From positions 1 to 29,328 of IMG/VR virus record IMGVR_UViG_3300007511_000096: a DNA stretch of 29,328 bases, one strand, 5' to 3'. Position numbers and translations under genes: made by a program. This stretch comes from a virus. Below, one piece after another: positions 5,885 through 25,768 of this stretch. The notes beneath the pieces were generated by a model. That model was not told the DNA's origin. It saw only the letters and a list, made by a program, of their open reading frames with translations, and searched no databases. Position 1 is the first letter of the stretch. Each line of letters begins with the position of its first letter.

Positions 5885-6943
5885 CTATCTTTTATACATT
5901 TTTTCAACTGGTACTTCAAAAACCTTTAATGGAATATCTAATTTCATAAATCTTCTATTACGAATAATTGAAAGTGTTACTATATCTCCCACATTATATT
6001 CTTCTAATATATTTGACATTTCTACATGAGTATTGAAAAGTTTATCATCTATCGCAAATAATGTATCAAATTCTTTGATATTTTCTGGCATATTATCTGA
6101 TTTTTGAATCAACATTCCAAACGTACTTGGTATCTGGCCGGGTTTTGCAGATGGATTTTCTTTATATAATTTTATTCTTTCTATGTCACTTGTACCCAAA
6201 CCAACGATCATAATTCCAATTGCTGGTCTGTCAACCTTTCCTTTTTCCAACATGGTTTTAAAAGATTTCTGTACAGTATCCCTTCGGATTGCAAGTCCTA
6301 TTCCAGCACTCTCCTTTACTTTGGAAATAATCAACGTATTAATTCCAACAATCTCTCCTTTCATATTCAAAAGAGGCCCACCAGAATTTCCAACATTGAT
6401 TGCTGCATCAGTTTGAATTGAATGTATATATGGATGCCTTGCATATCTATCTTCATGAGAAATCACACCCCTTGAAACAGACCACACCATTCCCATAGGA
6501 TGACCAAGTGCAAATACATCTTGTCCAGATTTAATTTCTTCGTTTGAAAATTTTAATTCTGGAACTGGTTCGTCCTTATCAACTGCTTTGAGAAGAGCCA
6601 AATCTCCAAGTGGATCTGTTCCTATAACTTCTACATCATAATCATTCCAATCCTCTTTGTTCCAATAGTAAATTTTAATATATTTTTGTTCATGTATACA
6701 ATGATAATTTGTTATTATATATTGCAAATCAACAACTGCGCCAGAACACATTGAATTCTGAGTTGAATTGATAGTAGGATCTTCGTTTTGTCTTGCAGAT
6801 ACCAATACAATAGATTCCTTTACACGATCTATGACCGATGGAAAATCATTATTTTCTGTATTGTTTGATATGTTAGCACTATTTGTCGCACAACTAAAAA
6901 TGAATATAATAAAACATATCAAGCATAAAATTTGCTTGATCAT
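5885..6943 (-). CDS. HtrA/Deg-type trypsin-like serine protease, probable lipoprotein
   Basis: 352 residues. The N-terminus is a lipoprotein signal (hydrophobic 4-17, lipobox IFSC with Cys18), so the mature enzyme should be anchored in the envelope facing the periplasm. The catalytic triad is visible: His81 (NYHC), Asp114 (GDLALL) and Ser187 (GNSGGP). The C-terminal region from about 230 to 340 looks like one PDZ domain (FGMLIQKS... DTLFAIDDK... VGDIVTLSIIRN). This layout matches DegS-like proteases that cleave misfolded or signalling proteins in the envelope. The gene sits 15 bases after a secreted-protein gene and belongs to the ExbB/ExbD/SbmA operon, so its target may be a component of that system or a host envelope protein. 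Confidence 0.9.
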   Translation of the reverse strand: MIKQILCLICFIIFIFSCATNSANISNNTENNDFPSVIDRVKESIVLVSARQNEDPTINSTQNSMCSGAVVDLQYIITNYHCIHEQKYIKIYYWNKEDWNDYDVEVIGTDPLGDLALLKAVDKDEPVPELKFSNEEIKSGQDVFALGHPMGMVWSVSRGVISHEDRYARHPYIHSIQTDAAINVGNSGGPLLNMKGEIVGINTLIISKVKESAGIGLAIRRDTVQKSFKTMLEKGKVDRPAIGIMIVGLGTSDIERIKLYKENPSAKPGQIPSTFGMLIQKSDNMPENIKEFDTLFAIDDKLFNTHVEMSNILEEYNVGDIVTLSIIRNRRFMKLDIPLKVFEVPVEKMYKR

Positions 6944-9681: not shown

Positions 9682-10132
9682 TCAATGCTACTTCGAGATT
9701 AACCAGTTGAACTTTAATGATGAGAGAACATACTAATCCAATCAAAGTAGTATATAATGCTGTACTCATCCCTATAGCCATATCAGACAAGGCTTGTTGT
9801 AATGTTGCTGCATTTGAAACATCTATATTTGAAAATGCAGTTCCTAACATTATAAGAAACCCTGTAACAGTTCCCACCATTCCAAGTGCAAGACATGATT
9901 CTGCAACGAACCATCCTACATCGGCTCTCTGATTATAATCCTCTAACCTATCTACGAGATAAGTTTTATTACCAACCCAAATAGAAGTACATGCAAATAT
10001 TAAAAGAATCAAAAAACTTATTTTTGTCATATCTGATTCATACAAATTTATATGTAAATCAAAATATACACATATTCCAATACCCAACATTGTAAGACAC
10101 GCTATAAGCCACCACTTTAAAACATGTATCAC
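9674..10132 (-). CDS. MotA/TolQ/ExbB-family proton channel
   Basis: 152 residues with hydrophobic helices at about 5-25, 37-54, 79-100 and 119-142. The family core is clear: LGMVGTVTGFLIMLGTAF at 83-100 corresponds to the ExbB/TolQ GxxGTVxG helix with its conserved Thr, and MSTALYTTLIGLVCSL at 122-137 to the second pore helix. These proteins form a pentameric ring around the ExbD/TolR/MotB dimer and use the proton gradient to do mechanical work. The protein is shorter than E. coli ExbB (244). Its ATG overlaps the guaC stop (4 bases), so it is co-translated from the guaC transcript. Confidence 0.88.
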   Translation of the reverse strand: MIHVLKWWLIACLTMLGIGICVYFDLHINLYESDMTKISFLILLIFACTSIWVGNKTYLVDRLEDYNQRADVGWFVAESCLALGMVGTVTGFLIMLGTAFSNIDVSNAATLQQALSDMAIGMSTALYTTLIGLVCSLIIKVQLVNLEVALNE

Positions 10133-11100
10133 TTGAAAACCTCGTTTAATTGTCTATTTACCTTCACGAAAGTTGTACATTTCGGAAGAGATTTTAACGT
10201 TTGAGCCCCTGCATATGTACAGGCACTTCTTAACCCCCCAAGAATTTCTTCAATGGTTTTATCAACTGAACCACGATAAGGAACTTGAACTACCTTTCCT
10301 TCACTTGCTCTATAATGTTGTTTCTCACCATAATATTTCAATTGTGCTTCTTCAGAGGACATACCGTAAAATATCATATTTCCATCTTCTATCTCACCAT
10401 AACATTCATCATGTCCGGCAAACATTCCACCTAACATTACAAAATCAGCTCCTGCACCAAATGCTTTCACAATATCGCCAGGGGAAATACAACCACCATC
10501 ACTCATTACATGACCACCCAATCCATGAGCCGCATCTGCACATTCTATTATACAAGAAAGTTGTGGATAACCTACTCCTGTCATTTTGCGTGTTATGCAA
10601 ACCGAACCAGGGCCTATCCCTATCTTAACAACATCGGCTCCTGCCAATAAAATCTGTTCAGTGACTTCAGGAGTGCAAACATTCCCAGCGACGATTATTG
10701 AATTAGAATGTTTCTCCCTAACTTTATTTATGTAGTTAATAAATCTTTCAGTATATCCATTCGCTACATCAACACACAACCATTGTGGCGTATCAAATTC
10801 TAATTCATCATCAAGACCAATCGTTTTCATTAAAAAATTTAAATTATCATTTTCTGGAAATTTCTCAAACTTACATAATGCAGTGAGCATATTTCGTTCT
10901 GATAAAACCTTGGCCATTGCAATTGTTCCAGTATGATCCATATTGGATGCAGCTATAGGAACACCTTTCCAATGATGTTTGGAATACTTAAAGGTAAATT
11001 TTCTATCTAATTCTGCATTCTTACGAGAAACAAGAGTTGACCGTTTTGGACGAATCAGAACATCAGTGAAATCAAGTTTTATATCTTCTTCAATTCTCAT
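10129..11100 (-). CDS. guaC: GMP reductase
   Basis: 323 residues, an IMPDH/GMPR TIM barrel closely resembling E. coli GuaC from the first residues (MRIEEDIKLDFTDVLIRPKRS). The catalytic Cys168 lies in GIGPGSVCITRKMTGVGYPQ, the loop specific to GMP reductase, and there is no CBS insertion. It reduces GMP to IMP with NADPH, letting the phage reroute guanine nucleotides. I chose ATG 11100 with GGAGA upstream, giving normal family length; an upstream alternative would add 20 foreign residues. A strong terminator ends only 18 bases before this ATG and no promoter fits between, so expression depends on read-through. It heads the exbB-exbD-sbmA-htrA operon. Confidence 0.95.
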   Translation of the reverse strand: MRIEEDIKLDFTDVLIRPKRSTLVSRKNAELDRKFTFKYSKHHWKGVPIAASNMDHTGTIAMAKVLSERNMLTALCKFEKFPENDNLNFLMKTIGLDDELEFDTPQWLCVDVANGYTERFINYINKVREKHSNSIIVAGNVCTPEVTEQILLAGADVVKIGIGPGSVCITRKMTGVGYPQLSCIIECADAAHGLGGHVMSDGGCISPGDIVKAFGAGADFVMLGGMFAGHDECYGEIEDGNMIFYGMSSEEAQLKYYGEKQHYRASEGKVVQVPYRGSVDKTIEEILGGLRSACTYAGAQTLKSLPKCTTFVKVNRQLNEVFK

Positions 11101-11118
11101 GTTTACTTTTCTCCAGAC

Positions 11119-11156
11119 AAAAAAAATGGGGAGGAGCTCTACGAGAACCCCTCCCC
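11119..11156 (-). terminator. Strong intrinsic terminator between the small membrane protein and guaC
   Basis: Minus strand: GGGGAGG (11156-11150) pairs with CCTCCCC (11134-11128), with an inner CTC/GAG pairing, followed by T8 at 11126-11119. It lies about 18 bases upstream of the guaC ATG. Confidence 0.9.
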
Positions 11157-11189
11157 ACACAATTCATTTTATTGTACACTATCTATGGA

Positions 11190-20958: not shown

Positions 20959-21134
20959 GATAATTCCTTTTCTTGTTGTTGTTGTTGTTGTTGGTGGTGA
21001 CGGCAGAATGTTTCATCATTCAAGATTTCGATTAATCGTTTTATTTTTTCGGGAGAAAGGCTTCTCAACAATCCAATTGTTGCGCCATCGAATCCCATTT
21101 TGTATAGTTCGTTATGCCCTATTGCTGTATACAT
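20955..21134 (-). CDS. Small protein with poly-Gln tract (59 aa)
   Basis: Residues 1-45 look globular and helical (GLLRSLSPEKIKRLIEIL); HH is then followed by seven consecutive Gln, all CAA, and EKELS. The CAA repeat (plus-strand TTG repeat) is length-variable in principle. Overlaps DHODH by 16 bases and the next gene by ATGA. Confidence 0.6.
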   Translation of the reverse strand: MYTAIGHNELYKMGFDGATIGLLRSLSPEKIKRLIEILNDETFCRHHQQQQQQQEKELS

Positions 21135-21853
21135 TGTTTCAGTAATTTCTTCATCTTAAACCAATTCAAACAAACACTCCCAATCGAAACATGGTCTGCT
21201 CCTCTTGCCAAGTAATCCTGTACGGCGCCAATGCTATCCACACCACCCCCAGCAATCACCTCCACGGCCGCACCCCAACGCTCTCTTACTATATCTATCA
21301 ATTCCATCGTGTAAGGCCGCAACTCTGGGCCAGACAACCCACCGCCCTCCGACAAGGGTAATGTGTTGCTAAAGTGTAACTGTTTAAACCCCAATTCATC
21401 TACCAAGAATTCTAATTGTTCTGGTGAAGTCAAGGGTGAAAGTTTTGCGATACACCACTCACGCTTCCTCTCTCTCAAGAAAATCTCTGCATCATCCCAA
21501 GGAAGTGTCTTTCCCAAATTCGGGCAAGAAAGATTCAATTCCACACTCTGGTTTGCAGGAATAAGAGATGCAAGTGTTTCAAACTCACCTCTCTTTGTTT
21601 CTGCAATTGAGAGAACAGTAGTTGCACCCATTGTGGTTGCATCCATCTTCTCCAATCCCACTTTGATGCCTGGATTGGGTAAACCTAGTTTGTTTGTCCA
21701 CCCTTTGTGTCTGCGGCTCCACCTGAGACTCTTCACCACACTCCACAATCGATTCCCTCTAGGATGTAAAGTGTATGTCCCTACTGTAGAGATTGCATTT
21801 GGATGTTTGATGTAATTACCAAACGGTGCAGAAATAAAAAACTTCGGGGTCAT
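21119..21853 (-). CDS. pyrD: Dihydroorotate dehydrogenase-like protein (class 1 type)
   Basis: 244 residues, a flavin-binding TIM barrel. NLSCPN at 107-112 is the class 1 catalytic-cysteine motif (Cys110), followed by GPELRPYTMELIDIV, an AGGGVDS phosphate-binding loop and GADHVSIGS near the end. It would oxidise dihydroorotate to orotate in pyrimidine synthesis; with ThyX and the PRT genes it completes a nucleotide-supply set. It is shorter than class 1A enzymes (about 310), mainly in the N-terminal region and the loops, so activity should be tested. A structured RNA gene lies upstream. Confidence 0.82.
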   Translation of the reverse strand: MTPKFFISAPFGNYIKHPNAISTVGTYTLHPRGNRLWSVVKSLRWSRRHKGWTNKLGLPNPGIKVGLEKMDATTMGATTVLSIAETKRGEFETLASLIPANQSVELNLSCPNLGKTLPWDDAEIFLRERKREWCIAKLSPLTSPEQLEFLVDELGFKQLHFSNTLPLSEGGGLSGPELRPYTMELIDIVRERWGAAVEVIAGGGVDSIGAVQDYLARGADHVSIGSVCLNWFKMKKLLKQCIQQ

Positions 21854-25504: not shown

Positions 25505-25750
25505 TTAATCCTGTGTGAATAATTCTCGGCCAGATTCTAACATTTTTTCTTTAACTTCTTCTATGCCGAAGAATTTTCCATTTGAGGGCCGCAAAAATGA
25601 CTCTCCGTTGAAAAAAAGTTCAAACTGCCCTGTCTCACCCTCTTCAATTTCACATGTATCTAGGAGTGTATTATTGTTGATTGCGGCAGAAAGCCTTTCT
25701 GCTTGTGGTCTGTAGTTTCAAGACCCACAATATTTTATTTTCCACATCAT
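25505..25750 (-). CDS. SelW/Rdx-family selenoprotein (in-frame UGA, CxxU)
   Basis: 81 residues if the UGA at 25720-25718 is read as selenocysteine. The N-terminus MMWKIKYCGSU (Cys8, Sec11) is the CxxU redox motif after a first beta-strand, exactly where SelW/SelT/SelH proteins carry it. The rest fits the small thioredoxin-like Rdx fold: a helix after the motif (AERLSAAIN), then GETGQFELFFNGESFLRP, matching the family's G-x-F-x-V-x-x-x-G strand, then a C-terminal helix. A hairpin 15 bases after the UGA (25702-25686) is a good bacterial SECIS. AGGAGG lies 7 bases before ATG 25750. Other genes here use TGA as a stop and TGG for Trp, so genetic-code reassignment is unlikely. A plain stop codon would leave only 10 residues and waste 70 conserved-looking codons. 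SelW-like proteins are thought to act in thiol-redox reactions. Confidence 0.88.
25686..25702 (-). promoter_or_regulatory. Candidate bacterial SECIS element
   Basis: Minus strand: GCAGAA (25702-25697), loop AGGCT, TTCTGC (25691-25686), a 6-bp stem and 5-base loop with G near its start. The loop begins 22 bases after the UGA, within the accepted 16-37 range for SelB-dependent decoding, and it lies within the coding region as bacterial elements do. Confidence 0.75.
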
Positions 25751-25768
25751 GAGGTTTCCTCCTCGTCT

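Follow-up and report, generated by a model that had tools for sequence, protein, structure and literature searches.

The window analyzed here, the whole 29,328-nt stretch of IMG/VR record IMGVR_UViG_3300007511_000096, carries on its minus strand, at 25750-25505, what is very probably a genuine phage selenoprotein gene of the SelW (Rdx) type. Its UGA codon would be decoded as selenocysteine (Sec) by the host, and the gene would have been acquired once from a bacterial Sec-SelW. Sequence comparison establishes the protein family, the conservation of the codon, selection on the region downstream, a conserved RNA structure and a single phage clade; from these we infer that selenocysteine is actually inserted at the UGA. 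The gene recurs, with the TGA codon and the RNA signal, in at least 35 further contigs that are viral or virus-like.

The SelW-like gene and its in-frame TGA

Read directly, the minus-strand frame from ATG 25750 to TAA 25507-25505 has a single interruption, a TGA at 25720-25718. With this codon translated as selenocysteine, the joined product has 81 residues, including one selenocysteine at residue 11, and begins MMWKIKYCGSUNYRPQAERLSAAINNNTLLDTCEIEEGETGQFELFF. Translation could start at ATG 25750 or at ATG 25747; homologues align with the latter. A Shine-Dalgarno-like AGGAGG (25763-25758, minus strand), a good predicted ribosome-binding site for this gene, lies 7 nt ahead of ATG 25750 and 10 nt ahead of ATG 25747. 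The segment just ahead of the start codon, GAGGAGGAAACCTC (25751-25764, minus strand), could form a small hairpin masking part of this site; its stability, -5 kcal/mol, is ordinary by shuffling.

The joined protein matches Pfam Rdx (PF10262) over residues 4-69 with 33 bits, against a gathering score of 22.6 (E 6.9e-8), and a six-frame search of the whole record also recovers Rdx, with '1 TGA' inside the match. The redox motif, YCGSU, follows strand 1, and C8 and C/U11 are invariant in the homologue alignment. In an AlphaFold model with the phage alignment as input (pLDDT 82), the elements are ordered strand-helix-three strands-helix (b-a-b-b-b-a), and the protein is modeled as a compact thioredoxin-like SelW fold. 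The best 20 Foldseek matches in the PDB are SelW-related or Rdx-type bacterial structures, with TM scores up to 0.76; MIEN1 and mouse SelW rank after these. By family membership, the product is expected to be a CxxU thiol/selenol oxidoreductase. A PHROGs search with the SelW-like gene returned no family.

Taken by itself, the window is compatible with a single TGY-to-TGA error, so that what lies here could be a Cys-type Rdx gene that was missequenced or has decayed to a pseudogene. We therefore turn to the homologues. Protein searches of IMG/VR gave 18 and then 26 loci, and one more relative, L041, lies on a phage contig that had been binned in a Chloroflexi MAG. A degenerate DNA pattern containing TGA returned 61 stretches, mostly real Rdx genes, of which 36 distinct versions over 50 bases from the codon, viral or virus-like, remained after filtering. 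The second redox residue of the C-G-S-U motif (25718-25720, minus strand) is TGA in all 36 of these intact-motif versions, which come from many metagenomes, and the base after the TGA is A in 35. When TGA was replaced by a Cys codon (TGY) in the pattern, four stretches were returned, none of them Rdx-like among those read, and no Cys version was found among the viral or virus-like homologues collected. In cellular homologues, the position is occupied only by TGA or TGY. Judging by a median dN/dS of 0.22 (105 usable pairs), the codons after the TGA are under purifying selection. The conserved TGA refutes sequencing error or decay, to which we assign next to no probability.

Of the 12 large ORFs in the window, five have TGA as their stop, so the codon is not reassigned genome-wide; recoding of this kind was rejected, TGA being the ordinary stop of other window ORFs. 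We also scanned the phage contigs for other conserved in-frame TGAs. Matches on the opposite strand are frame artefacts, and those on the coding strand resemble gene junctions on inspection. The initial annotation, made from the window alone, had described an Rdx-family frame broken only by a TGA in the CxxU position, in a genome that otherwise uses TGA as a normal stop, and each of these points holds. It had also looked to TGA/TGT/TGC variation in viral metagenomes and to Sec or Cys homologues in related phages for a decision; the former is absent from the 36 versions, and the latter are clearly present, all with TGA.

A conserved hairpin after the TGA

A bacterial SECIS-like hairpin occupies 25702-25686 on the minus strand (GCAGAAA-GGC-TTTCTGC; 17 bases in total, with a 7-bp stem and a 3-base loop). 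It begins 15 nt past the UGA, and its loop GGC (25695-25693) begins 22 nt past the UGA. The distance rule of bSECISearch for a hairpin after UGA is about 16-37 nt. With its location soon after the UGA and a G in the apical loop, the element has the features of a putative bSECIS. Thirty-six viral and about 26 cellular Sec genes have a stem-loop in this place and phase; the viral loops are GTC, GTT, GGC or GTA, the loop-initial G being invariant. Folded as a single sequence, the hairpin does not stand out against sequences of like composition (z about -1.4 to -1.6), and comparative tests were therefore needed.

Stem positions are paired in 234 of 252 cells (93%), against an expectation of 159±6 (63%) from 2,000 redraws of synonymous codons (maximum 179 paired cells), a codon-preserving null that overstates the count of independent cases because the sequences are related. 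For this reason, covariation was also scored. Among 17 phage genes, it reaches 0.250, compared with at most 0.145 in slid controls, and was matched by none of 500 shuffles; among 41 phage and bacterial genes, it is 0.526, compared with at most 0.229 in controls. Pair 3 of the stem occurs as A-U, G-C and C-G (GCA..TCT, GCG..TCC, GCC..TCG). These changes fall at third codon positions on both sides and leave Ala and Ser unchanged; protein-level selection would not generate such synonymous compensatory changes. Pairing is weak in a few relatives (4 of 7 stem positions in L020, L097 and L104).

In bacteria, the Sec-SelW genes of Chloroflexota and those from the phylum of G002 (annotated as Desulfobacteraceae) share this stem, with offset and codon phase unchanged; one example is GCGGCCA-GTC-TGGCCGC. 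The four Cys versions pair less well at this site (2, 2, 4 and 5 of 7). An Rfam search around the gene gave no matching family, only chance snoRNA matches. The codon null, the covariation and the offset common to bacterial Sec-SelW genes together uphold the SECIS-like hairpin that had been proposed from the single sequence.

We considered whether the TGA is instead read by ordinary suppression, or as Trp or another standard residue, which would make this a readthrough gene and no selenoprotein. The sampled phage fragments show no tRNA-Sec or SelB, as such a reading would have it, and Sec insertion is a prediction from sequence. However, the site is the redox Cys/Sec position of Rdx, the hairpin is common to cellular Sec genes at an unchanged offset, and TGA terminates other genes of the window. 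Readthrough is thus very unlikely, and selenocysteine remains the preferred reading of the codon.

Phage context and origin of the gene

The proteins of the window match PHROG families found chiefly in marine cyanophages, Pelagibacter phage HTVC008M and Methylophilales phages. In the relatives, the gene neighbors include a phage-type primase, RNR, ThyX, a RuvC-like nuclease and an exonuclease. Binning of L041 with a Chloroflexi MAG could suggest that the contigs are bacterial and the gene an ordinary bacterial SelW, but the neighbors of L041 lie at the same offsets as in the viral contigs L031-L035, which identifies L041 as a phage contig. Furthermore, the phage SelW proteins group in one clade (support 100/100) to which none of the sampled bacterial Sec or Cys proteins belongs. 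A bacterial origin of the contigs is extremely unlikely on this evidence, and the placement of the gene in a phage by the initial annotation stands. Membership of the T4-like phages is likely, as the window genes are homologous to cyanophage, HTVC008M and Methylophilales phage families. The window showed no hallmark structural gene; a Gp23 search of the fragments gave no match, nor did its control.

Other genes of the window, all on the minus strand, were assigned by Pfam family to an ammonium transporter (PF00909, 4142-5314), a fragment of a Na/Pi cotransporter (PF02690, 2739-3221), an SbmA/BacA-like transporter (PF05992, 7568-8545) and an IscA/HesB-like Fe-S assembly protein (PF01521, 27251-27631), the last 1.5 kb upstream of the SelW gene. 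IMPDH/GMP-reductase-like (10129-11160), dihydroorotate-dehydrogenase-like (21119-21853) and trypsin-like protease (5885-6943) genes are also present.

The tree is based on only 83 columns, and the source bacterium cannot be named from it. Most members of the phage clade share a TCEIEEG..GQF-type signature. Among the bacterial sequences sampled, none is close to the phage clade. With a bacterial Sec-SelW as query, the viral contigs yielded no relative, and hence no second independent capture was seen. A single acquisition from a bacterial Sec-SelW, SECIS included, is most likely, after which the gene would have descended vertically within a marine phage group. A tblastn search of 50,697 isolate phage records gave no relative of the SelW-like gene, so there is no cultured system.

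Five viral loci (L014/L039, L015, L016, L017 and L040) lack the TGA codon through in-frame deletions, and the remaining protein is conserved. They form one subclade (support 99/83, four distinct proteins in the tree), so selenocysteine was most simply lost once, probably by in-frame deletion after the acquisition. This subclade retains the gene, and selenocysteine is therefore not indispensable in every lineage; a host switch or an escape from Sec dependence is suggested. The sister subclade with its deleted Sec codon provides a natural experiment. Its old SECIS stem looks partly decayed.

Decoding, function and relation to known selenoproteins

Searches of 27 phage records for tRNA-Sec gave no match above the cut-off, and searches of 18 for SelB gave none; the records are fragments, none longer than about 44 kb. 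The host presumably supplies the decoding machinery, which is the simplest reading of these searches. In an infected bacterium with a selenocysteine pathway, the host SelB-GTP-Sec-tRNA(Sec) complex would bind the hairpin just past the UGA and selenocysteine would be placed at this codon; the product would be a thioredoxin-fold oxidoreductase of 81 residues whose active site reads Cys-x-x-Sec. If selenium or SelB were lacking, translation would yield no more than a stub of 10 residues. Genes carried by phages are normally written in the standard code. Here, the full-length product would require the selenocysteine pathway of the host, tying infection to hosts that have the pathway and a supply of selenium. 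A conserved phage Sec gene would thus offer a handle for host prediction.

In several lineages, the SelW gene recurs within a few kb of replication and nucleotide-metabolism genes, which suggests expression during phage replication. A thiol/selenol redox role at this stage, in which protein thiols would be protected or repaired through glutathione or thioredoxin, is conceivable, and we propose it tentatively. The Sargasso paper (PMC1088965) cites an interaction of SelW-like protein with glutathione.

In the Sargasso and GOS surveys (PMC1088965, PMC2398784), the SelW-like family ranks first in abundance among marine selenoproteins. Neither phages nor viruses are mentioned in the Sargasso text, and the word 'viral' occurs in the GOS text solely where the survey is described. 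The phage gene shares with these SelW-like genes, and with SelW of Desulfobacterota and Chloroflexota, the Rdx family (PF10262), the CxxU motif, the TGA codon and the offset and phase of the SECIS. It differs from the bacterial SelW-like genes in being phage-encoded, in forming its own clade, with the signature described above in most members, and in having no Cys version among those found.

The viral selenoproteins that we found in the literature are the poxvirus glutathione peroxidases of molluscum contagiosum and fowlpox (PMC8310308). These are likewise virus-encoded redox selenoproteins, captured from cells and decoded by the host, but they belong to a eukaryotic virus, to another protein family and to another SECIS type, whereas phage SelW has a bacterial-type SECIS right after the UGA. 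For isolate phages, the only other link to selenocysteine decoding genes that we found is the tRNA-Sec gene of Basilisk-like Bacillus phages (PMC6145125), for which no selenoprotein gene appears to be reported there; the phage SelW contigs show the reverse arrangement, a selenoprotein gene and no tRNA-Sec in the fragments searched. A viral seryl-tRNA selenium transferase has been inferred from hydrothermal-vent viromes (PMC5513705), which is not a phage selenoprotein. A later survey of trace-element families (PMC9402790) describes very few or no viral sequences in those beyond RNR II, plastocyanin and Cu-Zn SOD.

We found no literature attributing a marine SelW selenoprotein to phages; preprints (bioRxiv) lay outside this search and subscription journals were thinly covered, so an earlier report is possible. 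It is likely, then, that a whole marine phage clade encoding its own selenoprotein represents the first documented bacteriophage selenoproteins. If so, the family that leads marine selenoproteins in abundance would be viral in part, and selenium supply would be a factor in phage infection. Counts of marine selenoproteins would then seem to include viral genes.

Among the sampled bacteria, Sec-SelW is common in Chloroflexota and in the phylum of G002, and Nitrospirota have few homologues. The MAG that holds L041 encodes selB above the curated cut-off; since phage contigs are often mis-binned, this is a lead only. One candidate tRNA-Sec, in L022, was rejected, as ARAGORN calls it tRNA-Asn (gtt). 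At 97 bases (L022:6286-6382), it is an unusual tRNA with a long variable region and a weak match to the tRNA-Sec model. In the phylum of the Nitrospina MAG, the sole locus is a Cys locus that also occurs in G002. The Cys-type Rdx loci L042 and L043 are identical in sequence, yet the two MAGs that contain them carry different names (Desulfobacteraceae UBA2156 and an uncultured Nitrospina bin), so that one of these MAGs may be mis-binned or misnamed.
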